Below, piece after piece: positions 7,590 through 55,478 of a DNA stretch of 64,000 nucleotides. A program made the translations under genes and the position numbers. The stretch is from Branchipolynoe longqiensis (Eukaryota > Annelida > Polychaeta > Phyllodocida > Polynoidae). Location: contig CM059186.1 in the NCBI GenBank assembly GCA_030323885.1, positions 150,262,407 to 150,326,406 of the forward strand, in the 5' to 3' direction. Below the pieces are notes generated by a model, which was not told the DNA's origin, did not search any database, and saw only the letters and a list, made by a program, of their open reading frames with translations. Numbering within the stretch: the first letter of the stretch is position 1; the number at the start of each line of letters is the position of its first letter.

Positions 7590-8540
7590 AAGAGGTGAGG
7601 ACAGTCATTAGGGTTGACTGACGCTAATACTAAAGGGGCTGTCACATTAGGTTTTTTTGCGGGAGTGTACGGCGGCGTAGGCGCGTTACGTCATATATGT
7701 CGGCATACGCTATGCAGATGCTACGCATATGCTATGCAGATGCTACGCATACGCTATGCATGCGCTACGCATATGCTATGCATACGCTATGCATAGGCCA
7801 TCATGTGCCGGCATATGCCGGCGTATGCCGTTGTACGCCGCCATACGCTTTCTCCCGTCCATCCGTCCAAATTTGTTTGTGCATGCTAAAAAAAATCTCG
7901 ACCTATGGGAGCGTATGGTTCATACGCTACTCATACGCCGGTGTACGCTCCTCGTATGCCGGTGTACGCTCCTCGTATGCTAGGGGTGCGCCGGCGTAGG
8001 TTACGCATACACTCAACTTGCGTCACCGGCGTATCTCTAGTGTATGTAGCATACGCATAACCTACAAGTTACGTATGGGAGCGTACTCCTAGTGTATGCA
8101 CAGCGTATTCCAAGCATATGCCATAGGTCTCGACATCGATCTTGACTCATACGCTACTCATATGCTCATACGCTACGCATATGCTACGCATATGCTATGC
8201 ATATGCTATGCATACAGTACGCATATGCTACGCATATGCTACACTACGCATATGTTCCATATGCCAATCAAAACCATCAAAAAATGTCACAGTACGCTCT
8301 CATATGCTCCTCATAGGTTCCACATACGCTCAAAACCACCCGAGAGGTCACCAAAGGTCATGATAGGCCAGCACATGCAGCTTTTACGTAGGTTTTCAAT
8401 ACGCTTCCACCATACACCGTAATGTGACAGGGCCTTAATAGCCACAACTTGACCACAGAGACCTTTGATTATGGTTAGTCCTAAATAAAACCAAGAGAAT
8501 AGGTTATTTCAAGATGTGAAAATTATGCCTGATTGTATGC
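7590..8540 (-). repeat. Dispersed repeat family E, split by a TIR element
   Basis: gtcattagggttgactgacgctaatac before 7634 and tagccacaacttgaccacagagacc...gagaataggttatttcaag after 8435 line up with an uninterrupted paralogue at about 39340-39470 (gtcattagggttgaatgacagtaac...agaaaataggttgtttcaa). Family E is an old, diverged repeat of unknown class, also at about 12380-13760, 21630-21790, 30940-31560 and 38870-39060. Confidence 0.55.
7634..8435. mobile_element. Harbinger-like non-autonomous TIR element (CTGTCACATTA type), copy 1
   Basis: Flanked by TAA (7631-7633 and 8436-8438). Termini AGGGGCTGTCACATTA and, on the other strand, AGGCCCTGTCACATTA. The 802-bp interior encodes nothing and is dominated by tacgcatatgc / gcatacgct words that are their own reverse complements. 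The element at 43062-43803 is a reverse-complement relative: both share a gtccaaatttgtttgtgcatgct core and a ctcgacctatgggagcgtatgg block. A 3-bp TWA duplication is typical of PIF/Harbinger; no transposase is present to confirm the class. Confidence 0.85.
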
Positions 8541-9900
8541 CATCATGAGACTTGTGAATAAGTAAGGTTGTATTGGTCATGTTCCGGCTTCTTTAATGAT
8601 GACCACACATTAACCAATTTTCCCTTGACTGCATGCGGTTGCGGTGCGGGTATCGACGTATGACAGTGTGCACTCATGTCGAGTAATACTTAAAGTTCTG
8701 AGTCAGGCTATAAAAAGAGTCCATGGCAGCAGTCTGACACACCCCATTCTGCCTTCAAATTCAACTGGTCTGTGCAGTATATCCCAATCTATATGGGCAA
8801 TTACCCTAGAACTAGTTAATTCTTCGTCCTTATAGTAGGCATACAAACCTATGAAGGGAAACTATGCACCTAACCACTCCGTAATGTAAAGGTCTAATCA
8901 ATACACATGTATGTATCAAGTGTGTAGGAATACAACATATAACTGCTATTTTTGTATGTGAATTCTCAAACTATACCATATGTAAGTCTTTGAATGTTTG
9001 ATATTGTTATTTCAGCTGATTTGGGCTAGCTGCATATATTGTAAATAACTGTATTGTCACATGGCTGGAAGACCAGTGCCACGGCACTGACAAAAGACTT
9101 TATTCAATGAATAAACTATATTTACAACAACAACAAAAAATTTTAGCTCCATGTCTTTATGAATGCTTAGTTAAAACAAATAGTTAGGTGTTTAGAAATA
9201 ATATGCTGCCTAATGGCTGTAAACAATAATTCTATACAATTTCAATCCAAATAGTCAAAACGAGTACTGCTCGTGATTGACAGGTCAGTAACCATGGCAA
9301 CTGTCCATTCCGTGTTTATAAATGGTTACCACATGGCCAGAAACCACATGGCGCCAATTACTAAGTGCCCTGATTGGTGAACACAAGAAAGGGCCATAAA
9401 TATCAACACTGGAGCCAGCACTATGTGACCTCCTGAAATAGGATACCTGTCTCGAATAACAGTGGGAGGGGTAAGGGGTCAGGGTCTTAATTGGCAGCTG
9501 ACCGATTTGTCATTTTAACTATAATTACAACCGATGTGATTTCATCTATAACTTCGCATTCTGCCAACACCGAATAGCGAGCGTTCGGACTCTATCAGAG
9601 CAGACAAGACTTTATCCTTTCAGATGAATTAAAAACGAAGTACCCATGGGTATTCTTTGTGAGTTTACCTGGCTCAATATCCAGATATAACCGTTTTCAA
9701 TCCAGAACAGCCACTAACAGAACCCCCGTCCCACATTACAACTAGTGAATAGATTGGATAAGTCACAGTATTTTCTACGAGTATTTCTCACATACCACCA
9801 TGTATCTAAATGTATAATGTATAATCTAGCCTCTTGTCAATTCATATAAAAATTCTTGCCTTTGCTGTTGACATTGCATCAAACAAATAAAAATCAATCA
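8541..9900. other. No gene seen
   Basis: AT-rich DNA with short chance frames only. Holds the repeat fragment at 9062-9140 with its (AAC)n tail. No exon-like signal was recognised. Confidence 0.5.
9062..9140 (+). repeat. Dispersed repeat fragment, second copy
   Basis: gctggaagaccagtgccacggcact, then an A/C-rich end aacaacaacaa. Same family as 3410-3515. Confidence 0.45.
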
Positions 9901-9904
9901 AACT

Positions 9905-10345
9905 AGACGGAATGGCCAAATGAGTTGAGCGTCCACTTCCCGTGTCGCAGGTCATGGGATTCAAACCCATGGAGGTCAACCCTTGCCATGTCAAACCAAT
10001 GACTTAAAGATTTATACTCTTCACTACCTAGCCTGGCCCTCGCATTATTAGGACAGAACAAGGAGACGTGGAATGAGGATTGTTGTTTGTTTGTTTGTTG
10101 TTGTTTTACGTCCTAGCAACAGCTAAGGTCATATCAGAACGGGTACCGACTTGTGACAGTGCGCACTCATAGCGACTTTATAGTGCTGTCTCACTGAGAA
10201 ACCAGGCCGCCGGCACCATGACCTGATATCCCACTCAGTCACATTATCCTGACACTGAGCACACCAGTATGGAATGAGGAAGACCAATTGTCTGCGATTG
10301 AAATTTTACCTGCTTAGCTAATGAATGTAACAACAAAAATATAAA
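9905..10345 (+). repeat. tRNA-derived SINE, family B, interrupted by another SINE
   Basis: Head gacggaatggccaaatgagttgagcg, B-box-like gggattcaaaccc, the shared middle, then gtggaatgagga. The rest of family B (agaccaattgtctgcgattgaaatttt) continues only after the inserted family A piece ending at 10269. Confidence 0.85.
10080..10269 (-). repeat. 5'-truncated family A SINE inserted in a family B SINE, 11-bp TSD
   Basis: On the + strand the insert runs from ttgttgtttgtttgttgttgttttacgtcctagc to gacactgagcacaccagta, which is the 3' half of family A reversed. TGGAATGAGGA is duplicated at 10069-10079 and 10270-10280. Lost 5' end, a tail at the correct side and a target duplication are the marks of target-primed reverse transcription. 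Confidence 0.9.
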
Positions 10346-10742
10346 TTTTACAAATTATGTTTTAACGGTAACTTTGCAGTAATTCAGCATTGACAAAAGT
10401 TGTCAACTAAATATACATATGTTTTACAATAAAATAGTAAAACGTAAATCAATAAGATTTTCAAACTCTGACTATTCTGTCGAGACATACCGCATGCTGA
10501 AATCACGTGACTGAGTCTGTAATGCGATAGGTGAAGGCTGTGGAGATGTATGTACACTGCCCTCTGCTTCACGGTGGCTGGGCGTTGTAAGCCGCCAGGT
10601 GGCGCTCCCTCTGCTGCCTGCCAAGTGACCAGCTCTTCCCGACGGCGCTAACACTAGTAACAGCAGTCAATGCCACGGCAGCGGTGGTGTGTGCACAGGG
10701 GATGGTGGCGGAGGAGGAGGATGCGCAGTATAACATACCTTA

Positions 10743-10917
10743 AGCTAAGATTCCATATATGCGGTATGTGGTATGCGAATGTCAATGCGAATGCGACAAA
10801 ACATGGAAAAGCATATAAATACACAATGGTGCTTCCATATGTCCGAATGCGAATGCGAATGCGAATGCGAATGCGGCAAGTGGATCAGCCCATGTACCGA
10901 TCAGTGGAATCTTAGCT
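10743..10917. mobile_element. Harbinger-like MITE (AGCTAAGATTCCA type), 175 bp
   Basis: Flanked by TTA (10740-10742, 10918-10920). Ends AGCTAAGATTCCA and TGGAATCTTAGCT are exact inverted repeats. The interior is (gaatgc)n-like. Smaller relative of the element at 42632-45747, which has the same ends and a TAA duplication. Confidence 0.85.
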
Positions 10918-10929
10918 TTAGACGTAAGC

Positions 10930-11745
10930 AAGCAAAGAGATATATGGTGGTGGTGGTGAGCGGTGGTGAGTGGTTGTAGTTGTGAGTGGTGGTGGTCATG
11001 ATGGTGAGTGGTGGTGGTCGTGGTGGTGCATGGTTGTCGTGATGGTAGTGGTGGTGATGTGTGAGGTGTGTGGTAGATATGTGGTGGTAGTGCTGAGTGA
11101 CAGTATGACAGTGGTAGTGGTGATGTGTGAGATGTGTCAGTATGACAGTGGTAGTGGTGATGTGGAAGGTGTGTGGTAGATATGTGGTGGTAGTGGTGGG
11201 TGACAGTATGACAGTGGTAGTGGTGATGTGGGAGGTGTGTGGTAGATATGTGGTGGTAGTGCTGAGTGACAGTATGACAGTGGTAGTGGTGATGTGTGAG
11301 ATGTGTCAGTATGACAGTGGTAGTGGTGATGTGGAAGGTGTGTGGTAGATATGTGGTGGTAGGTGACAGTATGACAGTGGTAGTGGTGATGTGGGAGGTG
11401 TGTGGTAGATATGTGGTGGTAGTGCTGAGTGACAGTATGACAGTGCTAGTGGTGATGTGTGAGATGTGTCAGTATGACAGTGGTAGTGGTGATGTGGGAG
11501 GTGTGTGGTAGATATGTGGTGGTAGTGGTGGGTGACAGTATGACAGTGGTAGTGGTGATGTGGGAGGTGGGTGGTAGATATGCGGTGGTAATGCTGGGTG
11601 ACAGTATGACAGTGGTAGTGGTGATGTGGGAGGTATGCAGTAGATATGTGGTGGTAGTGGTGGGTGACAGTATGACAGTGGTAGTGGTGATGTGGGAGGT
11701 GTGCGGTAAATATGTGGTGGTAGTGGTGGGTGACAGTGATACATG
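10930..11745. repeat. GT-rich minisatellite, units of roughly 60-70 bp
   Basis: From 11040 the unit gtggtagtggtgatgtgggaggtgtgtggtagatatgtggtggtag plus gtgacagtatgaca repeats about ten times with length variants, forming higher-order pairs. 10930-11040 is a simpler ggtggt repeat. Open frames on both strands are by-products. Confidence 0.9.
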
Positions 11746-22493: not shown

Positions 22494-24670
22494 TGTAGCT
22501 GTCACACTACGACGACAAGCAGCGGCGACAGCCCTGCGACACCCACTCCCCTTTGTCGCTGATTGTCGCGCAGGTGTCGCGCAGGTGCCGCACAAGTGCC
22601 GCCGCGACACCTCCGCGGCAGCTCCAGTTTCTCCACTATTTCTCGATGGTCGCCGAGTTGTCGCGGGGATTTTGGACATGTTGAAAAACTTCGGCGACAG
22701 CGGACGACAGCCCAGGTTGTGGCACTGTCGCGGCACTGTCGCGGCACTGTCGCGGCACTGTCGCGGCACTGTTGCGGCACTGTCGCACTGTCGCAGCACT
22801 GTGGCGGCACTGTCGTCTTGTCGTTAAGCTGTAGTTGCTTCTCTCTCCATGTAGGTGTCTCTGTGTGTCTCTGTGTGTGTATATGTGTGTCTATGTGTCT
22901 ATGTGTGTGTCTGTGTCTATGTGTGTGTCTGTGTGTGTGTATATGTGTGTATATATGTGTGTGTGTCTCTGTGTGTCTGTGTGTGTCTGTGTGTGGCTGT
23001 GTCTATGTGTGTGTATGTGTATATGTGTGTATGTGTCTATGTGTGTGTCTGTGTGTGTATATGTGTGTCTATGTGTGTCTGTGTTTGTGTGTGTATGTGT
23101 GTGTCTGTGTATATGTGTGTGTATGTGTCTATGTGTGTGTCTGTGTGTGTATATGTGTGTCTATGTGTGTATCTGTGTGTGTGTCTATGTGTGTGTCTGT
23201 GTGTGTGTCTGTGTGTGTGTCTGTGTGTGTGTGTCTGTGTATATGTGTATATGTGTATATGTATATGTGTGTGTCTGTGTCTATGTGTGTGTATGTGTGT
23301 GTATATGTGTGTCTATGTGTGTGTGTCTGTGTCTGTGTGTGTATGTGTGTGTGTCTGTGTATCTGTGTATATGTGTGTGTCTGTGTCTATGTGTGTGTCT
23401 GTGTGTGTGTATATGTGTGTCTGTGTGTGTATGTGCCTCTGTGTGTGTGTCTGTGTATGTGTGTGTGTATGTATGTGTCTCTGTGTGTGCCTCACTCTGA
23501 CTCTCAGTCTGACTCTCACTCTCACTCTCACTCTCAGTCTGATTCTGACTCTCACTCTCAGTCTGACTCTCAGTCTGACTCTGACTCACTATCAGTCTGT
23601 CTCTCACTCTGAGTCTGACTCTGACTCTCAGTCTGACTCTCACTCTCAGTCTGACTCTCACTCTCACTCTCAGTCTGTCTCTCAGTCTGACTCTGACTCT
23701 CAGTCTGACTCTGACTCTCAGTCTGACTCTCACTCTCAGTCTGTCTCTCAGTCTGACTCTCACTCTCAGTCTGACTCTCACTCTCACTCTCAGAGTGAGA
23801 GTGAGAGTCAGACTGAGAGTGAGAGTCAGACTGAGAGTCAGAGTCAGACTGAGAGTGAGAGTCAGAGTCAGACTGACTCTGACTCTCAGTCTGACTCTCA
23901 CTCTGACTCTCAGTCTGACTCTCACTCTCAGTCTGACTCTCACTCTCAGTCTGACTCTCACTCTCACTCTCAGTCTGACTCTCACTCTCACTCTGACTCT
24001 GACTCTCAGAGACACACAGAAACAGAGAGACACACACAGAGACACACACATAGACACAGACACACAGAGACACAGACACACACATAGAGACACACACAGA
24101 GACACAGAGTCACACACACAGACACACACACACAGACACACACACATAGACACATACACACACAGACACACATATACACAGACACACACATATACACAGA
24201 CACACAGACACACACATATACACAGACACACAGACACACATACACACACAGACACACACAAACACACACACAGACACACACACACAGACACATACACACA
24301 CATACACACATATACATACATATACACACATAGACAGACACACACATAGACACACACATAGACACACATAGACACATACACACACATAGACACACACATA
24401 GACACAGACACACAGACACACACATAGAGACACACACAGACACAGACACACACATAGAGACACACACAGAGACACAGAGTCACACACACACAGACACAGA
24501 CACACAGACACTGTCGTCCCGCTGTCGTCCCGTCTGTGGTCCCGATGTCGTCGGGCTGTCGTCCGATTGTCGTCCAAATCGGCCCGAATTTGCATATGTC
24601 GTCCTGATTTCATAAAATACCAGTTGCCGGGCTGTCGTCACCCCCTTGTCGTCGTAGTGTGACAGCCACA
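22494..24670. mobile_element. Harbinger-like TIR element (CTGTCACACTACGACG type), 2.2 kb, microsatellite-filled
   Basis: Ends TGTAGCTGTCACACTACGAC and, reversed, TGTGGCTGTCACACTACGAC; flanks TTA (22491-22493) and TAA (24671-24673). The right junction lies in a family B SINE tail whose intact form is seen at 19825 and 35389 (ttacattc). Inside: gtcgcggcact repeats (22555-22820), then (tgtgtgtct)n, then ctctcagtctgactctcact to about 23790, then the complementary strand of the same words, ending in (acacacaga)n. Very long frames rich in VC, SDSQ or HTHT are microsatellite translations, not proteins. Confidence 0.85.
22850..24510. repeat. Strand-flipping microsatellite array
   Basis: GT/CT-rich words occupy the + strand to about 23795, where ctctcactctcagagtgagagtgag marks the switch. 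CA/GA-rich words follow, with a further ctctcagtctg block at 23880-24005. The two halves are complementary at word level, so the array could fold into an extended imperfect hairpin. Confidence 0.9.
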
Positions 24671-25589: not shown

Positions 25590-28500
25590 GAAAAGTTTTA
25601 TTAATAATTGATAGAATCCATTTAGTAAACTATATAAGGTGGTAGAGTCCAGCTGCCCTCAAAAAGGCTAAAATGTTTTCCTGTTTTACTTTAGTAAAAA
25701 GGTCATGCATACTGTCTGCAGTGTAGAACCGTTGGCGCAGGGCCAAAAAATCAACGCAACTTAGTAAAATGTGTTTGAGTGTCAGTGGGGACTGACACCC
25801 AATACATTCAGGGGGAGGTTCCCCCTTGAGCAGAAAAGCATGTGTAAGCCACGAGTGGCCAATACGGCAGCGGCTAAGGACCACTTGGTCCCGCCGACCT
25901 CCCGCATGAGTATGTGGTGGCTTTCCCACAGATGGTTCAATTTCTTTAAGTTTATTAATGTTTTCATCCCACTCATGTTGCCATTTGAATTTTATGTGGG
26001 TGGCTATTAGTGGTTTCAGATCAGAGTGAGGGATCAGACACGGTTCAAGATCACAGTTCAGGGCCTTCTTCGCAGCCCGATCAGCTCGTTCGTTTCCTTG
26101 TATGCCAGCATAGCCAGGCACCCAGCACAGGTGGATATCATACCCGTCCGTTGTCAGTTGGTTCATTTTATAAATGACCGTTGCTAGAATAGGGCGATTC
26201 GTTTTCAGTCCAGCAACAGCCAGGAGGCAAGAGAACGAATCACTGTATATAACATAGTTAGTGTGGTTGGATACCTCGATACACTCCAAAGCGAGAAGGA
26301 GTGCTCGGGCTTCTGCAGTGAAAATCGAGCTCTGATCGGGCAAACGTACACCAAATTTGTCCCGTTGGCAGACTGCCGCAGCAGCTACCCGGCTTTGGTC
26401 TTTCGAACCATCAGTGTATATGGAGAGGTGGTCTGCAAACTGGCCTTGAATCTCTGCATGCAGTCCTTGGTACTCGAGTGGATGTGTCCCAGACTTCCTC
26501 AGTTCCGTGAGTCGGAGGATAACCGATGGCTTTCTCAACGACCACGGGGGATGTTCTGGGCGTTTGGCATCCTCCAACACGTCCAAATCCACACCCAAGG
26601 CCTCCAAATGAGGTTTCATTCGTAGCCTCAGTGGCCGGATGTAATTTGGCCTGGCTTCATACCTGGATTCGTCATGTTGCTCGAATAGACAATTGTGTGC
26701 AGGATTCAATGCATTAGTTTTTATCTTGACTACATATTGCATGGCCAGTTTGATTCTCCTGTTGTTAAGTGATGGTTCATTGGCTTCGACATAAAGGCTC
26801 TGAACTGGTGAGGTGCGGAAGGCCCCAAGGGCCAGGCGCAGTCCCTGGTCGTGGATCGTGTCCAGCAGCCCAATATATGATTTCCTTGCGGAACCGTATA
26901 CTGTGCTGCCGTAATCCACTCGTGAACGAACCAAGGTTCTGTACACGGAGAGCAGAACATCTCTGTCCGCTCCCCACTCTGAGCTGGACAGCACCCTCAG
27001 AATATCCAGCGCTTTCAGGCATCTTGTTTTCAGGTACTTTATATGTGGCACAAAAGACAGTTTTGCGTCGAGAATGAGGCCCAGAAATTTGGTTTTCTCA
27101 ACGACTTTAATGGGATCCCCATCCAGGGTCAGCTCCGGTTCCGCATGCATTCTACGCACCAGGCAGAAGTGCATGCAGACTGTTTTGGTCTTGGAAAATT
27201 TGAAACCGTTCAGAACTGACCATCGATGGATCCCATTTATGCTTGGTTGTAGCTGTCTCTCTATGACATTCATGTTAGCACCGCTGTAATATAAAACAAA
27301 GTCATCCACGAAAAGACTACAGGAGACCCCCCGCTTTACAGCAGCAGCAATACCATTGACCTTGACCCGGAAAAGGGTCACGGCCAGTATGCTGCCTTGA
27401 GGTACTACTAGTTCCTGTGAGTGTAGACGGGAATAGGTAGTCTTGACACGGACGCGGAAATGCCTGAAGGCTAGAAAGTTCCTGATGAAAATTGGCAAGT
27501 GGCCACGAAGGCCAATCGCATGAAGATCCTCCATGATGCCATGCTGCCACGTTGTGTCATAGGCTTTTTCGAGGTCGAAAAAGACAGCCACAACGTGCTC
27601 TTTCTTAAGGAAAGCATCTCTTATGAAGGTCTCCATGCGCACCAAATGGTTGAGGGTGCTGCGGCCCCGTCTGAAGCCACATTGAAGGTTGGACAGGTGG
27701 TGTCCTGACTCCAGTAGCCAGACGAGGCGGTTGTTTACCATGCGCTCCATGGTTTTACAGATGCAGCTTGTAAGGGCTATGGGACGATAGTTGTGGGCTT
27801 CATTCTGGTCTTTACCAGGTTTGGGAATCGGTATTACTGTCGCCTCCCGCCAAGAGGCGGGGACGACACCCGACTCCCAGATGTTGTTGAAAAGTTGAAG
27901 CAACAGTCTCAGTGCATGTTCAGGGAGATGTTTCAAAAATTGATAATGAATTCCAACAGGTCCAACTGCTGTGTCATGCAAGCTTTCCAAAGAACACCTC
28001 AACTCACCCATACTGAATGGGGAGTTGTAGTGCTCCTCGCCATCGGAAGAAAAGTCCAAGAGCTTTTGCTCTTGGCGTTCCTTGACCACCCGAAAGCCCG
28101 GGAGGCAGTTTGACAAAGACGAGTTTCCAGCAAAGGTGCGAGCCAATTCTTCACTTATTTCGTCGAGTGATGTGAGAATGGTGCCATTGTGTTTCAAGTG
28201 CTGGACTACAGAAGAATCACCTCCCCTTCGTTTGATTCTCCTGATCATTGTCCATACTTTGCCCAACGGTGTGTGCATGGTGATGCTAGAAACAAATTGT
28301 CTCCAACACTGCCTCCGCGCTTCTTTGATTGTTCTGCGAGCGCGAGCGCGCAGAATTCTAAAGAGCGCCAGATTTTCAGCAGTCGGTCTCCTGTGGAATT
28401 TACGCTGAGCTTTCTTTCGTTCCTTAATAGCCCTCCTACAGCCGTCATCTAACCATGGAGGCGTCAAACGCTTGGGAGTTGCCGAGGTCTTCGGAACAGT

Positions 28501-28775
28501 TTTCTCCGCGATCCATCTCAGCATCTCAGTGAAGGCATCGATGTCACTGATGTCTGGGGTGAACTCCTCGCGACATAGGGTCTGGAAGGTGGGCCAGTCG
28601 GCTTTACAAAGCCGCCAGCTCCTCTGTCGCTCTACGGGAGATGCCCCTCCGCAATTAAGAATAATTGGGAAGTGGTCGCTCCCGCAGAGGTCATCCCAGA
28701 CCCTCCACGAAAAGTCCAGCACCAGTTCTGGTTCTACAATGCTGAGATCGATGGCGGAATATGCTATTAGCAGTT
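25590..28775 (-). mobile_element. I/Nimb-like LINE, 5'-truncated inside the endonuclease
   Basis: GC-richer than its AT-rich flanks. Coding sequence runs from about 28765 to 25630; the short 3' UTR ends in AT-rich sequence with AATAAAACTTTTC. The 5' boundary lies just upstream of the endonuclease SDH motif, so ORF1 and most of the apurinic endonuclease are missing. The open frame reaches a TAG at 25630-25632, so the copy is fairly young. Clear target-site duplications were not identified. Confidence 0.85.
25630..28722 (-). CDS. LINE ORF2 fragment: endonuclease C-terminus, reverse transcriptase, RNase H, zinc knuckle
   Basis: At least 1030 codons without a stop; the frame continues a little upstream to a stop near 28770, and the first codon taken here is GTG, so this is a truncated frame and not a real start. 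In order: endonuclease end with GSDHFPI (residues 14-20); reverse transcriptase with motif A FFDLEKAYD (381-389), motif B PQGS (441-444) and motif C FVDD (471-474); RNase H with D771 (TDGS), E804 and D828; PGYAGIQGNERAD (869-881) where most relatives have PGHVGI; C-terminal C-x2-C-x7-H-x4-C knuckle (973-989). The product would copy its own RNA at nicked chromosomal DNA. RNase H plus the knuckle points to the I group (I/Nimb). Missing parts mean it cannot act alone. Confidence 0.92.
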   Translation of the reverse strand: MLDFSWRVWDDLCGSDHFPIILNCGGASPVERQRSWRLCKADWPTFQTLCREEFTPDISDIDAFTEMLRWIAEKTVPKTSATPKRLTPPWLDDGCRRAIKERKKAQRKFHRRPTAENLALFRILRARARRTIKEARRQCWRQFVSSITMHTPLGKVWTMIRRIKRRGGDSSVVQHLKHNGTILTSLDEISEELARTFAGNSSLSNCLPGFRVVKERQEQKLLDFSSDGEEHYNSPFSMGELRCSLESLHDTAVGPVGIHYQFLKHLPEHALRLLLQLFNNIWESGVVPASWREATVIPIPKPGKDQNEAHNYRPIALTSCICKTMERMVNNRLVWLLESGHHLSNLQCGFRRGRSTLNHLVRMETFIRDAFLKKEHVVAVFFDLEKAYDTTWQHGIMEDLHAIGLRGHLPIFIRNFLAFRHFRVRVKTTYSRLHSQELVVPQGSILAVTLFRVKVNGIAAAVKRGVSCSLFVDDFVLYYSGANMNVIERQLQPSINGIHRWSVLNGFKFSKTKTVCMHFCLVRRMHAEPELTLDGDPIKVVEKTKFLGLILDAKLSFVPHIKYLKTRCLKALDILRVLSSSEWGADRDVLLSVYRTLVRSRVDYGSTVYGSARKSYIGLLDTIHDQGLRLALGAFRTSPVQSLYVEANEPSLNNRRIKLAMQYVVKIKTNALNPAHNCLFEQHDESRYEARPNYIRPLRLRMKPHLEALGVDLDVLEDAKRPEHPPWSLRKPSVILRLTELRKSGTHPLEYQGLHAEIQGQFADHLSIYTDGSKDQSRVAAAAVCQRDKFGVRLPDQSSIFTAEARALLLALECIEVSNHTNYVIYSDSFSCLLAVAGLKTNRPILATVIYKMNQLTTDGYDIHLCWVPGYAGIQGNERADRAAKKALNCDLEPCLIPHSDLKPLIATHIKFKWQHEWDENINKLKEIEPSVGKPPHTHAGGRRDQVVLSRCRIGHSWLTHAFLLKGEPPPECIGCQSPLTLKHILLSCVDFLALRQRFYTADSMHDLFTKVKQENILAFLRAAGLYHLI

Positions 28776-28794
28776 TCTAACATAAGTCATTACT

Positions 28795-32689: not shown

Positions 32690-32880
32690 CATGGAGGTGA
32701 TGAAAATGGGAAATGTTGTGCCTAGAGCAGGAATTTAACCCACATCTCTGGCACTCTGGACGAGAGTGCTAACAATTACACCACCTAGGCTCCCTGATGT
32801 CATTGCCTGATCCACACCAACCTGTCTCTATGGCTCCTTGCCTGATAGGTCAGTGCAGACCACTACATATATATTGCGAG
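32690..32880 (-). repeat. tRNA-derived SINE, family C
   Basis: The minus strand reads GGGAGCCTAGGTGGTGTAAT, TGTTAGCACTC, GGGTTAAATTCCTGC, then a CATTTTCATCACC tail. The best-preserved tRNA-like head of family C in the window, but the B box has lost its TTCGA core. Confidence 0.65.
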
Positions 32881-42630: not shown

Positions 42631-43061
42631 AAGCTAAGATTCCATATACGTGGTATGCGGTATGCGAATGCGAATGCGGCAAAAAATGGAAAAGCATATA
42701 AATATACATGGGTGCTTACATATGTCCGAATCCGAATGCGAACTCGAATGCGAATGCAGCAAATGGATTGACCCATGGACTGATCGGTGCGAATGCGAAT
42801 GCTGCTGCGTTTTCCATAGAAAACAATAGTAACTTTGACTTTCCTTCACAAATTTGGAGCAAAAAAACTCCAAAAATGGGATGGGTATCTTTTTTTTGGG
42901 GGGGGGGGGTTGTTTCGCAACCCCCAACACAAAAAGAAGACATCGACTATTGGAGGTCAGCATGGGTATATATGCCGCATTGTAAGCTGTGAACACACTG
43001 GACGCGTTTCTGGCGCGGGCATCAAGCGTCGCGCGGGCGTAAAAAATCATAATGTATGTAA

Positions 43062-43803
43062 CTCCCCCTGTCACATTACGGCGTATGGCGGGAGCGTATT
43101 GAAAACATACGTAAAAGCTTCACGTGCCGGCCTATCATGACCTTTGGTGACCTCTCGGGTGGTTTTGAGCATATGTGGAACCTATGAGGAGCGTACGAGG
43201 AGCGTATGAGAGCGTACTGTGACATTTTTTGACAGTTTTGATTGGCATATGGAACCTATGCGTAGCATATGTGTAGCATATGCGTAGTGTATGCGTAGCA
43301 TATGCATAGCGTATGCATAGCATATGAGGTTATGAGTAGCGTATGAGTCAAGATCGATGTCGAGACCTATGGCATACGCTTGGAATACGCTGTGCATACA
43401 CTGTGCATACGCTAGGAGTACGCTCCCATAAGTAACTCGTAGGTTATGCGTACGCTACATACGCTAGAGATACACCGGTGACGCAAGTTGAGCGTATGCG
43501 TAACCTATGCCGGCGCACCCCTAGCGTACGAGGAGCGTACACCGGCGTACAAGGAGCATACACCGGCATATGAGTAACGTATGAACCATACGCTCCCATA
43601 GGTCGAGATTTTTTTAGCATGCACAAAAAAATTTGGACGGAAGGACGGGAGAAAGCATATGGTGGCGTACAACGGTATAGGCTGGCACATGATGGCCTAT
43701 GCGTAGCATATGCATAGCGTATGGCGGCATATGCCGACGTATATGACGTAACGTGCCTACGCCGCCGTACGCTCCCGCAAAAAACCATAATGTGACAGCC
43801 CCT
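43062..43803. mobile_element. Harbinger-like TIR element (CTGTCACATTA type), copy 2, innermost of the nest
   Basis: 742 bp, reverse orientation of 7634-8435. Flanks TAA (43059-43061) and TTA (43804-43806). The right end, reversed, reads AGGGGCTGTCACATTA. The interior is gcgtatgcatagc words in both orientations. Confidence 0.85.
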
Positions 43804-44097
43804 TTATAAAGAGAAGCCGAACACACTGGCGCGGGCGGTTCTTGTGCGGGCGTCACGAATCGCTTTTGGAGTGATTTTTTACGCATGACGCGTGGTGACG
43901 CTTGGCTTTTGACCGACTTTGCCTGATTTTGCCCGACTTTGCCTGACTTTGCCCAACTCGACTCAACTCTACTTGACTTTACTCGACTGTACTTGACTGT
44001 ACTTGACTATACCCGACTCTACTCGAATCGATTCGAGTCTACCTGACTCGACTCTATCCAACTCGACTCTATCCAACTCGACTCTACCTGAATCCAC

Positions 44098-44990
44098 TAT
44101 GTTATGTGTGTGTACCACACAGTGTGTTATGTGTGTGTACCACACAGTGGGGTATGTGTGTGTACCACACAGTGTGTTATGTGTGTGTAACACACAGTGT
44201 GTTATGTGTGTGTGTACCACACAGTGTTATGTGTGTGTACCACACTGTGTTATGTGTGTGTACCACACAGTGGGTTATGTATGTGTACCACACATTGTGT
44301 TATGTGTGTATACCACACAGTGTGTTATGTGTGTGTGTACCACACAGTGTGTTATGTGTGTACCACACAGTGTGTTATGTGTGTACCACACAGTGTGTTA
44401 TGTGTGTGTACCACAGTGTGTTATGTGTGTACCACACAGTGTGTTATGTGTGTGTACCACACAGTGTGTTATGTGTGTGTACCACAGTGTGTTATGTGTG
44501 TACCACACAGTGTGTTATGGGTGTGTACCACACAGTGTGTTATGTGTGTACCACACAGTGTATTATGTGTGTGTACCACACAGCATGGTATGTGTGTACC
44601 ACACAGTGTGTTATGTGCATGTACCACACAGTGTGTTATGTGTGTGTACCACACAGTGTGTTATGTGTGTGTAACACACAGTGTTTTATGTGGGTATCAC
44701 ACAGTGTGTTATGTGTGTAACACACAGTGTGTTATGCGTGTACCACACAATGTTATGTGTGTGTACCACACAGTGTGTTATGTGTGTACCACACAGTGTG
44801 GTATGTGTGTACCACACAGTGTGTTATGTGCGTGTACCACACAGTGTGTTATGTGCGTGTACCACACAGTGTGGTATGTGTGTGTACCACACAGTGTGGT
44901 ATGTGTGTACCACACACTGTGTTATGTGTGTACCACACAGTGTGTTATGTGTGTACCACACAGTGTTATGTGTGTACCACACAATGGCGT
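44098..44990. repeat. About 25-bp satellite GTGTTATGTGTGTGTACCACACA
   Basis: About 36 units; each contains tgtgtgtaccacaca, a partial palindrome. It forms the middle of the element 42985-45114, in the position where the 53.6-kb relative has GTGTCT/AGACAC arrays. Before it, 43910-44097 is an actcgactctac-type short tandem. Confidence 0.92.
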
Positions 44991-45160
44991 TATTTGCCGC
45001 GTGCAGACGCGTGGCAGACGCATCCAGTGTGTTCGCTATTTGCGCGTGAGAACCGCATGAGGCCCGCTTGTACTTGACGCCTGGGCGACGCACGCGTCCT
45101 GTCTGTCCGTAGCTTAGACTACCGCATTCGCATGCCGCATACGGCATATATGGAATCTTA

Positions 45161-45741
45161 AGCTGCGTTTACACAGGCGAGTTGAAACGTCCTAGGTAGA
45201 ACCAGTTGCCTAGATCGTTTTAAATGTGTCCGTGTAAATGCGCCACTGTGGTGTTTTAGGGCTGAAACGTTTCAGCTGGAACGTTCCGCATATACCACCT
45301 CTGGAGGTGGTTTACAGGAAACGTTTCAGCTGGTTCCCGGGCGGTGATAGTGTACAATAGCAGTGCTCGCCGGATACAGGCTCAGGTGTAACTATTCACT
45401 GGTGCCCAGCAGTGTTAGGGACCGATTAGGCCGAAATCTATTGAATGCGATCATATTTAACAGAATCACATACTCTAATAATGAAATTTAATTAAATTAA
45501 CACTAAATTCCAAGCGATATTAACGTAGCAGCTAGATCGGCGTCAAATCGCCGAGTGTAAACAAAACAAATAGCAGTGCTCGCCGCAACATACGTAAATC
45601 CGCGCATGCGCAGAAGCCACGGCAGGGCGCTGAAACTGACCGGGCGCTGAAACTGCCACACCGTGTAAACGTGCCACTAAAACACCTCAGGTAAAACGCT
45701 TTGCCTAGATCGTTTTACTTTTTGCCCGTGTAAACGCAGCT
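45161..45741. mobile_element. Harbinger-like TIR element (AGCTGCGTTTACAC type), inserted in a terminal repeat
   Basis: TTA at 45158-45160 and 45742-45744. Ends AGCTGCGTTTACAC on both strands. Subterminal inverted words: gcctagatcgtttta, ggtgttttag, gctgaaac. Contains ccgcgcatgcgcagaagcc and gctgaaactgccacacc, shared with the inverted-repeat cluster at 48.57-49.02 kb. No ORF. Confidence 0.9.
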
Positions 45742-45916
45742 TTAGCTTAAGACGTGTAACTTGTTTCCACTGTCAGTGACGTACAACCATGATGTTAGTG
45801 ACAGTATACCGAGTGGTTGTGGACATGTGTACAAAGTCAGTACCCGAGCTAAGTACAATGCGTAATTAGTACTAGTATGACCCAGAATTAATTTTAAATC
45901 CGATCATAGGTATTTA

Positions 45917-46800: not shown

Positions 46801-46804
46801 GTGC

Positions 46805-47515
46805 ATTTGAAAGTTTTTGACTTTCAGATCTTTTGTATTAGCTAATGCAGCAGCCGTTCCATGCTGGCCACATCAGCCTGGCCTTAGCATTAATAGTTTG
46901 ATGGGATCCTCCGCAAATACACAGGTTTCCCGTTTTAATGCTATGATGCCAGCAGCCATTCTAGTTGTGCCTATGTGTTATCATTTGGACAGGATCCATT
47001 GCAAATGCGCCGTTCCACAGCATATATGCCACCTCTAACGAACTGCACGCTCTGCGATCCCGAGCCGCCCGCCGGCACATACGCTGCAGAATGGCTGCTG
47101 CCATCATAGCTTTAAGCCCAGAACCCGGTGCATTTGCGATGGATCCCGTCCAAACGATAACGCATGACCAGAACAGTTGCTGCCATCATAGCATTAAACC
47201 TGGAGATCTATGCATTTGTGGTGGATCCCATCAAGCCATTAATGCTCAGGTCCGGCTGGATCGTAGAATATGGCTGCTGCCATCATAGAATTAAACGCAG
47301 AACCCGGCACATTTGCGATGGATCCCGTCCAAATGATAACGCATAGACACAACCAGAACGGCTCCTGCCATCATAGCATTAAAACTGGAAACCTCTGTAT
47401 TTGCGGTGGATCCCATCAAACTATTAATGCTCAGACCCGGCTGATGTGGCCAGCATGGAACAGCTGCTGCATTAGCTATTACAAAAGATCTGAAAGTCAA
47501 AAACTTTCAAAGATT
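46805..47515. mobile_element. Foldback element, about 700 bp, with internal tandem units
   Basis: The left arm from gaaagtttttgactttcagatcttttgta...gctaatgcagcagcc to gtgttatcatttggacaggatcc (46810-47000) is the reverse complement of 47505-47315 with few mismatches. Between and inside the arms a unit of about 181 bp (ccatcatag...gaacccgg...gcgatggatcccgtcc...) repeats. No protein frame. Confidence 0.85.
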
Positions 47516-47912: not shown

Positions 47913-48948
47913 CAACTCGGGTCACCCGAGCCACCTCTTGGCGCATGCACAGAACCTACATCCCGTCCTGATATGACCTTAGATGTTGCTAGGACGTAAA
48001 ACAACAAACAAACAAAAAACAACCTCGGGTGGCATAAAGAAATACACTCTGGGTGGAAGAAATGGAGGCCTAACCCAAAACATTTTTTTGTAATAACCGA
48101 TATAACTACAACAAAATAGGATTTAAAGTATTTTATTGTTGCGCGTGTATTTTTCTACTCCACTCGCGGTGTTCGATTTGAAATTCTAGCAACTCGGGCG
48201 ACTAATCGAGAAGGGTCCACAGTGACGAAAGGAGGAAAAACGGCTGACCACTGGGTCATATTGAGCATACCCTTGCAGAAATAGTTTCCCATTCTTTAAG
48301 TCCTGATATTGTGTGATTTAAAGAGAAGTTGATGTAGATAAATTAAAAATATACTTCAAGCACTTTAATCTGTGCAAAAGATAAATAAATATGTGATAAT
48401 GTCTGAACAATAAACTATGTTGTTGTTGTTGTTGTAGTCAAATAATATTTGACTAGACTGCTAGCTCTGTGGAGGTCTAGCCTGGTCCCCTGGCATTCAT
48501 TTGCTCCGGCAGAGGCATCAAAGTTTTCTGCTATTATCGCTCAGTTTCCAACCTGGTCCCCTAGCCTTTGTACCGGTGTGGCGGTTTCAGCTCGTTCCCG
48601 TGCTCAGCCGTGTCCCTTGCTTCTGCGCATGCGTCAGAATCTAATAAACATGGCCGTAATCGATTAACACGACCCGGGCCACTCGGGTCATCCAAATTTC
48701 AAATAGAACACAGCGAGTGGAGTCGACAAATACACGTGCCGTGTGCAAAAAAAGAATAACTTAGAATAATGAAATGGAAATATAGCTAAACTAGGCCATC
48801 ATAAAATACTTTAAATCCTATTTTGCTGTACTTTTATCGGTTATTAAAAAAAAAAAAAAAGATTGTCCACCCGAGCGTATTCGATTATTCGACCCGAGTT
48901 TGTAGGATGTGTGCATGCGCCAATAAGTGGCTCGGGTGACCCGAGTTG
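47913..48948. mobile_element. Inverted-repeat element with ACTCGGGTCACCCGAGCC ends
   Basis: The ends at 47913 and 48948 share an inverted repeat of about 22 bp containing ACTCGGGTCACCCGAGCC, then ggcgcatgcac/gtgcatgcgcc. Inside, 48085-48205 and 48665-48855 are also inverted copies (accgata..., ggatttaaagtatttta, cactcgc.gtgttc). A 3' SINE fragment sits in the left arm (47969-48026). The order is complex and may record two elements. Confidence 0.7.
47969..48026 (+). repeat. 5'-truncated family A SINE fragment
   Basis: tcccgtcctgatatgaccttagatgttgctaggacgtaaaacaacaaacaaac is the last ~55 bp of family A plus its tail. It interrupts the left arm of the inverted-repeat element; the right arm is continuous there. 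Confidence 0.8.
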
Positions 48949-50624: not shown

Positions 50625-51241
50625 TACCCCTGTCACACTATGACGTAACGAGCCAACGTGAGGCTAACGTGGTCATTTTTCGTCATTACTTTGGGTTACG
50701 TCATGATGACGTCAGAATGACGTTAGAATGACGTCGAGCTACGTCACATTACGTTGAGGTTTTGGACATGTTCAAAAATGTTGACGTAGCTCGAACGTAA
50801 GGGTTTACGTTCGCCGTACATTCTGTTCACGTTCAGTGAACGTAAATGACGTTAAACGGACGTTTTTCCAACGCTGCTCACTACGTTCAACTACGTTCCA
50901 CTACGTTGACCAACATTAAACCGAGTGCAAATGCCCACGTGGCGTAATGGGAACGTCAGGAGAACGTGCATTCAACGTATGTTCAACGTCTCATGACGTA
51001 GGTAACGTCACGTAACGTTCTTCTGGCGATGGAATAACGTTCATAACGTTCTGTGAGCGTAATGACGTTGTCCTCTCTCGTTGAATGACGGTATCACTAG
51101 GCTTTACCGAGGTTACGCTCTCGTCCACTACGCTGCATCCATGTTCAACTTGTGCCCAAATTTGCATACTACGCCCAGAAGTTCAACGTTCTTCACGTTC
51201 TCCCTATGCTGACGTCATTACGTCGTAGTGTGACAGTACCA
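50625..51241. mobile_element. Harbinger-like TIR element (CTGTCACACTA type), ACGT-rich, copy 3
   Basis: 617 bp. Ends TACCCCTGTCACACTATGAC and, reversed, TGGTACTGTCACACTACGAC; flanks TAA (50622-50624) and TTA (51242-51244). The interior is almost wholly made of acgtaacgt, tgacgt and acgttc words. No ORF. Confidence 0.85.
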
Positions 51242-51389: not shown

Positions 51390-51730
51390 CCAGCGGGATG
51401 GCCGAGTGTGTATGGTGACCGCTTCCCATGCGGGAGGTCATGGTTTCTATTTCGGAAACAAAGAATTACAAAGATCGCACATTATCCTGATAATGTGACT
51501 GAGTGGGATACTATGTCATAGATCTAATACTTGTTTGTTTGTTTAACGACACCCAGCACAAAAACTAAATATCGGTTATTGGGGTTATCATGTCATGATA
51601 CTGACAGCAAAATATTTCAATGGAGGGGTGCTATAAATCGACCATGAGTGTAAATTCTGACAAGTCGGTATATATCTATGTTCTGATAGCACCTTAGATG
51701 TTGCTGTAGTGTAGCCTAAAACTCTAGTCA
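51390..51730 (+). repeat. tRNA-derived SINE, family A, carrying a 70-bp insertion
   Basis: Head gcgggatggccgagtgtgtatggtgaccgcttcc, then the body is shortened and resumes at acattatcctgataatgtgactgagtgggatactatgtcat; after the insert (51520-51589), catgtcatgatactgacag...agatgttgctgtag. Confidence 0.7.
51520..51589 (-). repeat. Fragment of another SINE inserted in a SINE
   Basis: agatctaatacttgtttgtttgtttaacgacacccagc...tatcggttattggggttatc is foreign to family A and is flanked by ATGTCAT (51513-51519, 51590-51596). The tttgtttgtttaacgac edge suggests the 3' tail end, so the fragment lies on the minus strand. Confidence 0.6.
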
Positions 51731-51879
51731 GTCATTTAATGTACACTCGTAAGGCCAACTATTCACAGTACAGGGTGTCAAAACTTGGCATGTACATTGC
51801 ATCTTCAATCATTACTGATAGGGGTGCACTGATGGAAAGATGGGAATAATATTGCAGTGAATTACACTCACCTCTCCAA

Positions 51880-52310
51880 GTGGCACATGTATTTATGGAT
51901 AGGTGGAATACGTCAGTGAGCCTAGATAAATTAATGGATTGGATGTTTAGACTTTGTATTAGAATAATAAGAAATGTGGGCTCAATTCCCACCCTAGGCT
52001 GGCTAGGCATGATATCCCTGTTTATTCGCATCACCCCCACACTACTGCTTCCGTGACTAGGATAATGTACACACTGAGCACTGTATGGTGCTGAACCTGC
52101 CTTGTGTATATAATGGAATAGAGATATTTGTTATAGTAAGGATTAGACTATGATTCCATGGGGGACGAGGATAGTGAAGTGCACTCAACCTTTCTAGGTA
52201 GGTGTAGGTGAGTGGATTGAATCGGGAAGCATAGATAGCCTAATGGTTATGACATTAAACCCCGAATGGCATAAATGTGGATTCGATTCCCACTCTAGGC
52301 ATGTTCCTGA
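51880..52310 (+). repeat. Two tRNA-derived SINE family C copies
   Basis: The first ends in aatgtgggctcaattcccaccctaggc (about 51968-51994); the second has tagcctaatggttatgacatt, aatgtggattcgattcccactctaggc (about 52230-52300). Both have A- and B-box-like words in the right order on the + strand. Between and after is AT-rich sequence. Confidence 0.55.
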
Positions 52311-52639
52311 TTGTTTTCAGCACCCTCCAACGATAACCCTAAGCACAAAATAAAGACTGCTTTAAATAATAGTAGTACTTGTCTACCCAATGCAAAGATT
52401 CTGCCACAAAACCAGGGGACATACAGTTGTTTCTGTCAGTGTCCAGGCGTATGCTTGGTTATATAATCATGGAGGCTATGCAAAGATCTGCTGGGAGTGC
52501 GAATTGCCGTTTCTAGTAGATCACCAGAAACTGTAATGGAAGCAATGGTTTGTATTCTGGACTTTTAATGAAGACACAAGTAGATCTATGGCAAAACTGG
52601 GTTGAAATTTCTATTAGGTTTTCCTAAAGGATTCTTTAA

Positions 52640-53377
52640 TACCCCTGTCACACTACGACGTAATGAGCGAACGTGACCCTAACGTGGTGATATTTCGTCA
52701 TTACGTTGATGTACGTTGGATTACGTTATGATGACGTCATAATGACGTTAGACTGACGTCGAGCTACGTCATGTTACGTCGTGTTACGTCGGCGCGCGTC
52801 GAGGTTTTGAACCTGTTCAAAACTTTCAACGTATCTCAACGTGAAGCCGTTACGTTGGGATGACGTGACAATGACGTTAGGTTGACGTTCCGCGATCGTT
52901 ATAGCAGCGTAAATGACGTTAGAGTCACGTTATGTCACGTCAGACCGACGGCCCGGGTGGGAGCAACGTGTGGGCAGCGTTTTGCACGTTACGGTCACGT
53001 TACGGTCACGTTACGGTCACGGTTACGGTCACGTTACGGTCACGTTACGGTCACGTTACGGTCACGTTACGGTCACGTTACGGTCACGTTACGGTCAAGT
53101 TATGGTCACGTTACGTTCACGTCACACCCGTTACGGCGACGTTACGCTCACGTTACACTAACGCCCGGTCACGTCGCCAATTACCCCTCCCCTCTAACGT
53201 TGTCACGTTACAGCTAACGTCATGACGTACACCCACGTTACTTTCACGTTACGCTCACGTCAACTACGTTGCATTCACGTCCACAATTTGCATATTACGC
53301 CGATAACTTCGACGTGATATCATTATTTTCACGTTGTGGTTACGCTGACGTAGTCACGTCGTAGTGTGACAGGGCCA
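52640..53377. mobile_element. Harbinger-like TIR element (CTGTCACACTACGACG type), ACGT-rich, copy 4
   Basis: 738 bp. Flanked by TAA on both sides (52637-52639, 53378-53380). Ends TACCCCTGTCACACTACGAC and, reversed, TGGCCCTGTCACACTACGAC. Interior words acgttacggtc (a pure 11-bp tandem at about 52985-53105), tgacgt and cacgtt. Same family as 50625-51241 but different in length and array. Confidence 0.9.
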
Positions 53378-53608
53378 TAAGACTGATCTGTAAATTGAAA
53401 GTATCAGGAGTAGATACTCGGAGCTGATAGTGATACTACAGTAAAACCTCTCTAACCGACCAGACATTAGTTCTTCCACTGACATCAAAGGGCGGATCGG
53501 TGGTGAAAATGCTATATGTATTTGCAAATATCGGATGCAACTTCCATTGAACTTCCATTCAAGCAAACATTTTGTTTGGATTCACGCCACGAATCGTAAT
53601 ACAAGTTA

Positions 53609-55478
53609 AGCTGCGGACAGACAGGACGCGTGCGTCGGGCGTGCGTAAAGTACAAGTGAGCGTCATGCAGTTTTCGCACGCAAATAGCGAACACACTGGA
53701 TGCGTCTGCCACGCGTATGCGTCATTGGTTTGACTCTCTGTGTCTCGGTGTGTCTGTGTGTGTCTGTGTGTTACTCTGTGTCTGTGTGTGTCTCTGTGTC
53801 TCTGTGTCTGTGTGTGTGTCTCGGTGTGTCTGTGTGTGTCTGTGTGTGTGACTCTGTGTCTCTGTGTGTGTATCTATGTGTGTGCTGTGTCTCTGTGTGC
53901 ATGTGTCTCTGAGAGAGACACACACAGACACTCTCCCTCCCTCCCTCCCTCCTGTATGTGTGTGTGTTACTCTGTGTCTCTGTGTGTCTCTGTGTGTCTG
54001 TGTGTGTGACTCTGTGTCTGTGTGTGTCTCTATGTGTGTGTCTGTGTCTGTGTGTGTGTGTGTGTCTCTGAGAGAGAGACACACAGACACTCTCCCTCCC
54101 TCCCTCCATCCTTCCCTCCCTCTCTCCCTCCCTGTGTCTGTGTGTGTGTGTCTGTGTGTGTGTTACTCTGTGTCTGTGTGTGTGTCTGTGTGTGTGTGTC
54201 TGTGTGTGTGTGTCTCTGTGTGTGTCTCAATGTGTCTGTGTGTGTGAATCTGTGTCTCTGTGTGTGTCTCTGTGTGTTCTGTGCCTCTGTGTATGTGTCT
54301 CTGAGAGAGGCACACAGACAATCTCCCTCCCGCTTTCCCTCCCTGTGTCTCGGTGTGTCTGTGTGTCTCTGTGTGTGTCTCTGTGTGTGTGTCTCTGTGT
54401 GTCTGTGTGTGTGACTCTGTGTGTGTGACTCTGTGTGTGTCTCTATGTGTGTGTCTGTGTCTCTGTTTGTGTGTCTCTGAGAGAGACACACAAAGACACT
54501 CTCCCTCCCTGCCTGCCTCCCTCTCTCCCTCCCTCTCTCTCTCTCTCTCTGCCTCCCTCCATCCCACACAGAGACACACAGATACATGCAGAGAGACACA
54601 CACAGAGACACACAGAGATGCAGAGACACACACAGAGACACACACACAGATACAGACACAAAGACACACAGACACACACACAGACACACACACAGACACA
54701 CACATAGAGACACACACAGAGACAGAGACACACACACAGACACACACAGATACAGAGATACACACACACAGACACACACACAGACACACAAACACAGACA
54801 CACACAGACACATACAGAGACACACACAGAGACACACACAGCCAAAGAGACACACACAGAGACACACACAGATACAGACACAAAGACACACACATACACA
54901 GAGACACACACAGACACGGAGACACACACAGACACAGAGACACACACACAGACACACCTACAGGCACAGAGACACACACAGAGACACACACACAGACACA
55001 CACACACACAGAGACACACACATAGACACAGAGTCACACATACAGACACAGAGACACACACACAGACACACACAGAGACACACACAGACACAAACACACA
55101 GAGACACACACATAGACACACACATAGACACAGAGACACACATACAGACACAGAGACACACACATAGAGACACACACACAGACACACACATAGACACAGA
55201 TACACACATACAGACACAGAGACACAGACACAGAGACACAGACACAGACACACACACACAGACATAGAGACACACGCAAAGTCAGGCAACGTCAGGCAAA
55301 AGCCAAGCGTAACCACGCGTCAAGCGTAAATAATCGCTCCAAAAGCGATTCGTGACGCACGCGCGATAAACGCACGCGCCAGTGTGTTCGGGTTCTCTTT
55401 ATTACATACATTTTGATTTTTTACGCACGCGCGACGCTTGACGCACGTGCGAGATACGCGTCCAGTGTGTTCGCAGCT
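53609..55478. mobile_element. Harbinger-like TIR element (AGCTGCG(A/G)ACA type), 1.9 kb, microsatellite-filled
   Basis: TTA at 53606-53608 and 55479-55481. Ends AGCTGCGGACAGACAGGACG and, reversed, AGCTGCGAACACACTGGACG. Flanking arms carry gacgcacgcgcg words; the middle (53735-55275) is microsatellite. Relative of 42985-45114. No coding sequence. Confidence 0.9.
53735..55275. repeat. Strand-flipping GTGTCT / AGACAC microsatellite with CTCCCTCC spacers
   Basis: (tgtgtctctgtg)n on the + strand to about 54480, with four intervals of gagagacacacagacactctccctccctcc (about 53905, 54065, 54300, 54475); after about 54560 only the complementary words (cacagagacaca)n. Cysteine/valine- or histidine/threonine-only frames are artefacts. 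Confidence 0.92.

Follow-up and report, generated by a model that had tools for sequence, protein, structure and literature searches.

VANDALs are Mutator-like plant elements that encode their own proteins and make target-site duplications of 9-10 bp. Two reports describe a family-specific VANDAL protein that binds arrays of a short motif, with different motifs in related elements (PMC5735166; PMC10398659), and the first describes VANC motifs as accumulating and changing together via tandem repeat formation (PMC5735166). In Harbinger elements a Myb/SANT-like second protein binds the terminal repeats and is far more divergent than the conserved transposase (PMC9179366). Our study concerns a stretch of 64,000 nucleotides from the polychaete Branchipolynoe longqiensis (contig CM059186.1, positions 150,262,407 to 150,326,406; here called the window), in which two families of gene-less elements with terminal inverted repeats, C and B, carry short repeated words. 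The words are nearly exclusive to subfamilies in C and, in one end of B, change in concert between its two copies, and may be binding sites of a fast-changing protein. To our knowledge, how animal non-autonomous transposons keep or switch their allegiance to a mobilising protein is largely open. All of our conclusions are based on ten elements within this one window (Table 1).

Ten transposable elements with matching ends

The ten candidates are genuine elements with matching ends. TTA or TAA (together TWA) is present on 18 of their 20 flanks, compared with a frequency of 0.036 for these trinucleotides in the window; the two exceptions are both at B1, whose flanks (GTA/TAG) are no TWA duplication. 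As the preliminary description of this DNA had claimed, five elements carry CTGTCACAYTA at both ends with TWA on all ten flanks, and these form the C family. The same triplet is found on both sides in only two of the five. The outer T and A are constant on the ten C flanks, and the central bases are unequal in C3 (TTA/TAA), C1b and C2a (both TAA/TTA). The unoccupied form of the C1b site, in B2, has TAA, from which the right flank copy of C1b differs. Exact CTGTCACAYTA occurs 11 times on the two strands of the window, ten of them being the ends of the C elements. The eleventh (CTGTCACATTA type, 57324-57334) is a false end within a stretch taken as similar to short interspersed elements (SINE-like). 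The remaining five elements had been listed as one AGCT-ended set with mostly TTA/TAA flanks. A clean, identical 3-bp repeat of TTA or TAA on both sides supports that view of the flanks in A1, A2, B2 and D (4/4) and not in B1, and the set itself splits into families A, B and D, which are partly nested. The ends of the two B elements follow an AGCT...GG.CGCG pattern and, by eye, look like those of D.

Two nested insertions, of D and C1b, have their unoccupied forms inside the window, with at most 3 bp repeated. When D and a single TTA are taken out in silico, the remaining sequence reads TGGAATCTTAGCT, which is the A1 left end in reverse complement. The C1b site is unoccupied in the sister B2, which reads TATGTAATAAAGAG, and B1 reads TATGTAA, then C1b, then TTATAAAGAG. 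C1a and C1b are related over their full length, with a mean column identity of 90%, and B1 and B2 are 87% identical over 112 and 206 bp at the ends; in both pairs the two sisters point in opposite directions. C1b lies in B1, B1 in A1 and D in the A1 right end. The order of events read from this nesting is A1, then B1 into A1, then C1b into B1, with D entering A1 separately.

Comparison of the 300-bp flanks of nine elements (D left out) found no homology between the sisters C1a/C1b, C2a/C2b, B1/B2 or A1/A2. A segmental duplication is rejected because, apart from two trivial overlaps between neighbours, the flanks gave only two short matches, of 71 and 25 bp, both between non-sister places. Fixed ends and unshared flanks had been named beforehand as the test of the transposon reading, which survived it: the ends match, the flanks are TWA, two internal sites have unoccupied forms and sister flanks are not shared. 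A blind search for TWA-flanked inverted ends of 16 bp, with up to 3 mismatches allowed, returned 45 pairs, versus 1 to 5 per shuffle in five shuffles. It recovered six of the ten elements (C1a, A2, C3, D, C2b and B2) and missed C1b, C2a, A1 and B1 as full pairs; many of the 45 pairs overlap or fall in SINE-like or E sequence. In agreement with the earlier view that the elements encode nothing, no Pfam match above the cut-off was found among eight open reading frames (ORFs) inside or overlapping them. One simple-repeat frame had a sub-threshold match to DUF6603 (19.4 bits, cut-off 27). Among 22 ORFs of the window, matches above the cut-off were only of reverse transcriptase and RNase H types, in two ORFs outside the elements. 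Four matches to the C end in viral contigs, none with TGTGACAG within 4 kb, were taken as chance.

Words that differ among C subfamilies and change together in B

The C family consists of three subfamilies with the words GCGTATG (C1), RACGTR (C2) and GCGACAG (C3), spaced mostly about 11 bp apart. The strongest autocorrelation lag is 11 in all six C segments (the four C1 and C2 elements, plus the two outer parts of C3, left and right of its middle), versus 2 of 143 overlapping background windows. The words are nearly exclusive. GCGTAT occurs 15 times in C1a, 12 times in C1b and nowhere in C2a, C2b or C3; AACGTR occurs 13 times in C2a, 27 times in C2b, twice in C1b and not in C1a or C3; GCGACA occurs 14 times in C3 (middle left out) and in none of the other four C elements. 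In the rest of the window the density of the three words is 0.3-0.4 per kb. The C3 middle (22862..24511) has no CpG and none of the words. The ratio of observed to expected CpG lies between 1.18 and 1.99 in the C elements (C3 middle left out) and 0.58 outside the listed elements.

Word positions near one end are common to the subfamilies. The first word of every subfamily starts immediately inside the conserved end. Counted from CTGTCACA, the word CpGs of the left end lie at offsets 15 and 28 in C1b, C2a, C2b and C3, and at offset 39 in C2a, C2b and C3; C1a keeps the CpG at 28 and has TG instead of CG at 15. The orientation strings of the words in C2 and C3 both begin FFF-R, and both read FF after the anchor TTTTGGACATGTT; a further anchor, AATTTGCATA, is 83 bp away from the right end in C2a, 93 bp in C2b and 84 bp in C3. 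With words in brackets, the left end reads [GACGTAA]TGAGCG[AACGTGA]CCCT[AACGTGG] in C2b and [ACGACAA]GCAGCG[GCGACAG]CCCT[GCGACAC] in C3, so that identity is 3 of 12 for the non-CpG bases of the words and 8 of 10 for the spacers (Fisher p 0.03). Homology of the C2 and C3 scaffolds rests on the two anchors, because the interior scores (34 and 40; shuffle means 25.7 and 26.2) stay below the shuffle maxima (39 and 44). Support from the anchors is moderate, because 11 of 500 C3 shuffles have a 12-mer in common with C2a. Full-length homology of C1 with C2 or C3 was rejected, the local scores being inside the block-shuffle range.

Turnover is seen at the centre of C2. In an alignment cut into three parts after it had been seen, C2a and C2b score 170 versus a shuffle mean of 52.5 on the left and 66 versus 29.9 on the right. 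The centre scores 55 versus 51.7 for 11-bp-block shuffles (standard deviation 7.5), which is no excess homology. The two centres still contain 21 and 29 ACGT, compared with 1.3 and 1.5 expected from base composition (about 16-19 times the expected number).

The preliminary description had regarded hairpin-rich filler as a property of the whole set of elements, perhaps formed by replication slippage or aberrant gap repair. As a family property this is unsupported for C, whose interiors carry a subfamily-specific word at positions that, near one end, the subfamilies share. Tandem duplication by slippage does suit part of the data. If slippage or aberrant repair of post-excision gaps wrote the filler, the word would be the unit amplified in each lineage. 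Indels in C1 and C2 include several of 10, 11, 20 and 22 bp (others are 1, 5, 6, 8, 9, 16, 24 and 56 bp), the spacers too repeat at lag 11, the C2 centres are rewritten, and tandem arrays are common elsewhere in the window. However, slippage does not account for word positions common to the subfamilies, for spacers better conserved than words, or for the words retained in the rewritten C2 centres. We conclude that tandem duplication is the raw material and that something else preserves the word and its positions.

The B family shows a change of a word at several sites at once. In the right-type end, CGGGC in B1 corresponds to CGTGC in B2 at four of four sites, at aligned positions 32, 50, 103 and 118. 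The alignment covers 206 bp with 25 substitutions and, without C1b and one of the TWA copies, has no gaps; the four sites are dispersed, with otherwise alignable stretches between them. In simulations with the same substitution spectrum and random placement, scored on the 5-mer CGGGC/CGTGC, a repeated context change of 4 arose in 2 of 20,000 runs. For C2a and C2b, over their first 165 ungapped columns, the same statistic did not exceed 2. Slippage does not account for an identical base change at four dispersed, non-tandem sites; in its favour, the similarity of B1 and B2 is confined to their ends. Because blastn matches only these stretches of 112 and 206 bp and the terminal inverted repeat, the middles differ: a 25-bp array in B1 and GT/CA sequence in B2, with no blastn match between them. 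Slippage or gap repair as the writer of the arrays is the main rival to the recognition-site reading; we regard it as a real possibility at clearly less than even weight.

Mutational hot spots, such as CpG decay or oxidised G runs, could also strike the same word at many sites. Of the 62 differences between C1a and C1b, 35 are of the CpG to TpG/CpA type, and the B difference is a G/T exchange inside a GGG run, in either direction. However, CpG decay cannot turn RACGTR into GCGACAG, and the B change is a transversion at all four sites in a total divergence of 25 in 206. We consider this explanation very improbable.

The other two families have little of this kind. The best lag in D is 14 (z 3.5), which is no strong array, and the array of the A family is limited to a 6/12-bp CGAATG repeat.

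Hairpins, foldback layouts and neighbouring repeats

Self-complementary interiors had been described for all of the elements. We counted pairs of 9-mers in direct and inverted orientation in 800-bp windows, with expectations from a first-order Markov model. Direct/inverted counts were 280/34 in C1a (expected 2.8/6.3), 454/16 in C2b (4.1/3.1), 17/14 in C2a (2.1/2.8), 3638/1218 in the C3 centre (356/27) and 2435/2213 in the B2 centre (123/48). The excess of inverted pairs supports the description for these five and not for the B1 array, where 47 inverted pairs lie below the expected 172.6. Inverted repeats are not confined to the listed elements, because other windows are also rich in inverted pairs (125 at 32801, 282 at 55201, 401 at 60401 and 106, in element E, at 46801); the windows at 55201 and 60401 contain TA microsatellites. 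Six large arrays outside the elements have 0 to 10 inverted pairs. Folding was more stable than in 20 shuffles each for C1a (z -6.6), C2b (-6.6) and C2a (-7.8). Hairpin energy is not special to arrays, because D also folds better than its shuffles (z -4.9, 100 shuffles) despite having no strong arrays.

C3 and B2 share a layout with a GT arm on the left and a CA arm on the right; C1, C2, A and D have no such arms. These large GT/CA hairpins are real in layout, but neither arm is a recent copy of the other. The likeness of the arms is inside Markov-5/6 nulls, the longest inverted exact matches between arms being 31 in C3 and 32 in B2, and in C3 the direct repeats within one arm are longer (55 and 53). 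The arms are no more alike than Markov-5/6 arrays, which is evidence against a recent snap-back event that would have produced the CA arm from the GT arm, a candidate we rejected, and it also counts against the filler view discussed above. In the B2 left arm (53735-54560), GTCTCTGAGAGAG at 53905, 54064, 54297 and 54473 forms each time a short turn, after which comes a CTCCC-rich stretch, an arrangement that looks like the repeated formation of small inverted copies.

The foldback layout of C3 and B2 recurs in E, a large palindrome unrelated to them (z -25.7, 20 shuffles), and is therefore recurrent rather than specific to one family. Foldback transposons such as FB, Tetris and Tm1 have composite inverted repeats with tandem repeats, and C3, B2 and E are similar in this respect. 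The elements could be of FB type, with long inverted repeats, tandem-repeat arms homogenised by conversion and no binding role for the words. FB-like elements with tandem-repeat arms are known from reports on Tetris (PMC4079207) and Tm1 (PMC3169594), and the B2 arm score of 148 exceeds the Markov-3 maximum of 138. However, Tm1 makes duplications of 9 bp and has a redundant motif about 14 bp long (PMC3169594), and Tetris units are about 220 bp (PMC4079207), unlike the elements here. The interiors of C1 and C2 lack mirror arms and have mixed word order, and arm-to-arm matches and scores do not leave the Markov-5/6 nulls. C1 and C2 suggest, for their own subfamilies, an intact word lattice without symmetric arms. 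A foldback origin seems unlikely to us.

E was absent from the preliminary description. With arms reading TTTGAAAGTTTTTGACTTTCAGATC..., it contains internal repeats in both orientations. At 48094-48843, some 750 bp separate the inverted ends TAACCGATA...TATCGGTTA of what is probably a further non-coding DNA transposon. Two reverse transcriptase ORFs on the minus strand (25630-28776, which also has RNase H, and 61468-62520) are probably from elements without long terminal repeats; their closest proteins are 73-74% identical, and a sea spider protein is 50% identical (best 120 of 1571 matches).

Table 1. Elements of the window and features within them, with window coordinates
Feature	Coordinates	Strand	Description
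C1a	7634..8435	-	CTGTCACATTA-ended; flanks TAA/TAA; word GCGTATG, also GCATATG
C1b	43062..43803	+	full-length sister of C1a, in B1; flanks TAA/TTA
C2a	50625..51241	+	word RACGTR; flanks TAA/TTA
C2b	52640..53377	+	C2a sister copy, with a homogeneous 11-bp array close to its centre; flanks TAA/TAA
11-bp tandem array CACGTTACGGT in C2b	52985..53156	.	15.7 copies
C3	22494..24670	+	word GCGACAG outside middle; flanks TTA/TAA
C3 middle	22862..24511	.	GT arm 22862-23489; CTCACT/AGTGAG core 23491-24008; CA arm 24012-24511
Anchor TTTTGGACATGTT in C2a	50760..50772	+	exact match with C3; C2a position 136
Anchor TTTTGGACATGTT in C3	22670..22682	+	C3 position 177
B1	42985..45114	-	AGCT-ended, hosts C1b; flanks GTA/TAG; 25-bp array 44100-44983
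B2	53609..55478	+	sister of B1; flanks TTA/TTA; middle of GT arm, CTCCC blocks, CA arm
B1 right-type end, CGGGC words 1 and 2	43016..43038	+	at 43016-43020, 43034-43038
B1 right-type end, CGGGC words 3 and 4	43832..43851	+	at 43832-43836, 43847-43851
B2 CGTGC homologues	55357..55447	-	at 55443-55447, 55425-55429, 55372-55376, 55357-55361
A1	42632..45747	+	AGCTAAGATTCCA-ended; flanks TAA/TAA; CGAATG repeats; hosts B1 and D
A2	10743..10917	+	short relative of A1 left part (by eye); flanks TTA/TTA
D	45161..45741	.	AGCTGCGTTTACAC-ended; no strong arrays; at TTA in A1 right end
E	46806..47511	.	large foldback palindrome, unrelated; arms begin TTTGAAAGTTTTTGAC; no TWA flanks

The words as candidate recognition sites

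We favour the reading that the word arrays of C and B are binding sites of a fast-changing, element-encoded protein, multiplied by tandem duplication. Drawn from sequence comparison, this reading is a tentative one, which we rate as just short of evenly balanced between right and wrong. The elements would be non-autonomous cut-and-paste DNA transposons moved by proteins encoded elsewhere in the genome. A slowly evolving transposase would read the conserved bases at the outside (CTGTCACAYTA, in most cases with CG next to it), and a fast-evolving partner would read the word that begins just inside them and recurs at about 11 bp. This partner could be the Myb-like companion of a PIF/Harbinger transposase or an anti-silencing protein. 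Tandem duplication would multiply and spread the word. When the specificity of the partner shifted, copies with matching words would transpose more, and selection of this kind may lead the words to change together while spacers and scaffold persist.

A number of observations weigh against this reading. Copy numbers are small, with five C and two B elements, and no transposase or Myb-like gene was found among the 22 distinct window ORFs scanned (74 listed). The boundaries of words, spacers and segments were set by eye after the alignments had been viewed. The C1 'left' end was picked as the matching end, and C1 right ends have no site at offset 15; between the right ends of C2 and C3, offsets 12 and 15 are the only ones in agreement. 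Orientation could be read either way for 16 of the 35 ACGT in C2a and for 9 of the 50 in C2b. At lag 11, identity in C1 is about equal in core and spacer, so that whole 11-mers repeat, and C2 has a small core excess (about 0.43 versus 0.35 in C2a). Fourier peaks of the six C segments scatter from 10.25 to 11.30 bp. Helical phasing is weak in C2b (Rayleigh peak 17.7 at 10.66 bp versus 10.7, standard deviation 3.2, for shuffled intervals) and absent in C2a (7.2 versus 8.4, standard deviation 2.3); it was dropped because the C2a peak lies within the shuffled range. The middles of C3, B2 and B1 contain none of these words. The CpG decay between C1a and C1b counts here too, and because of this decay within arrays the repeated-context statistic reaches 9-10 in both directions in that pair. 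In the right-type end of B2, three words are GCGTGC (GCGGGC in B1), and the first is ACGTGC, in which the preceding base differs too. The left-type end of B1 has a sole GCGGGC, which is GTGAGC in B2, and this site therefore departs from the rule; that end of B1 also has two GCGTGC/GCACGC, one of them co-located with a B2 copy.

The elements resemble PIF/Harbinger and Tourist-like miniature inverted-repeat transposable elements (MITEs) such as mPing/Ping in their TWA repeats (clean in A1, A2, B2 and D), terminal inverted repeats and non-coding copies. We take the C end GGSSCTGTCACAYTA to be similar to the mPing end, and with the TWA flanks this makes PIF/Harbinger a plausible superfamily. The Harbinger-like label given earlier stands as to transposons, and membership is unproven because no transposase was found in the ORF scan. 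Other differences from PIF/Harbinger are the central base of the flank triplet, which differs in 3 of 5 C elements, and the subfamily-specific word arrays, which the portions of text examined do not describe for that superfamily. Literature searches found no description of concerted word swaps in Harbinger-like elements, which is not proof of absence, and element end sequences matched literature text only in works unrelated by title. Tandem-repeat-bearing MITEs of molluscs reportedly have a repeat array within a non-autonomous element.

The VANC/VANDAL system of Arabidopsis is our favoured working analogue and the closest one, by likeness in the conserved end, the variable word and the concerted change. 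As in VANDALs, C and B have non-coding arrays of a short word that differs among relatives and changes together. Unlike VANDALs, the elements here are small, gene-less and TWA-flanked, with at most 3 bp repeated at the unoccupied sites, and the helper protein is inferred. Several copies of a short transposase-binding word also lie inside the ends of Ac/Ds, and both Ac/Ds and Spm have other ends and duplications than the elements here. The same arrangement is given for Spm (CACTA) in a published report (PMC9921582). In C1 and C2, unlike Spm and Ac/Ds, the words span the whole element. A wider proposition is that small DNA transposons from two families with unrelated terminal repeats each exchange a short recognition word concertedly, at positions that are dispersed but fixed, every subfamily having a helper protein of its own. 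This would be an animal counterpart of VANC/VANDAL; we consider it less likely than not.

If the words are binding sites, gene-less copies would record past DNA specificities of the partner proteins, and the splitting of families would be directly testable by pairing word class with partner. If true, this would also offer a straightforward account of transposons filled with repeats, which otherwise end up classified as satellites or as foldback debris.

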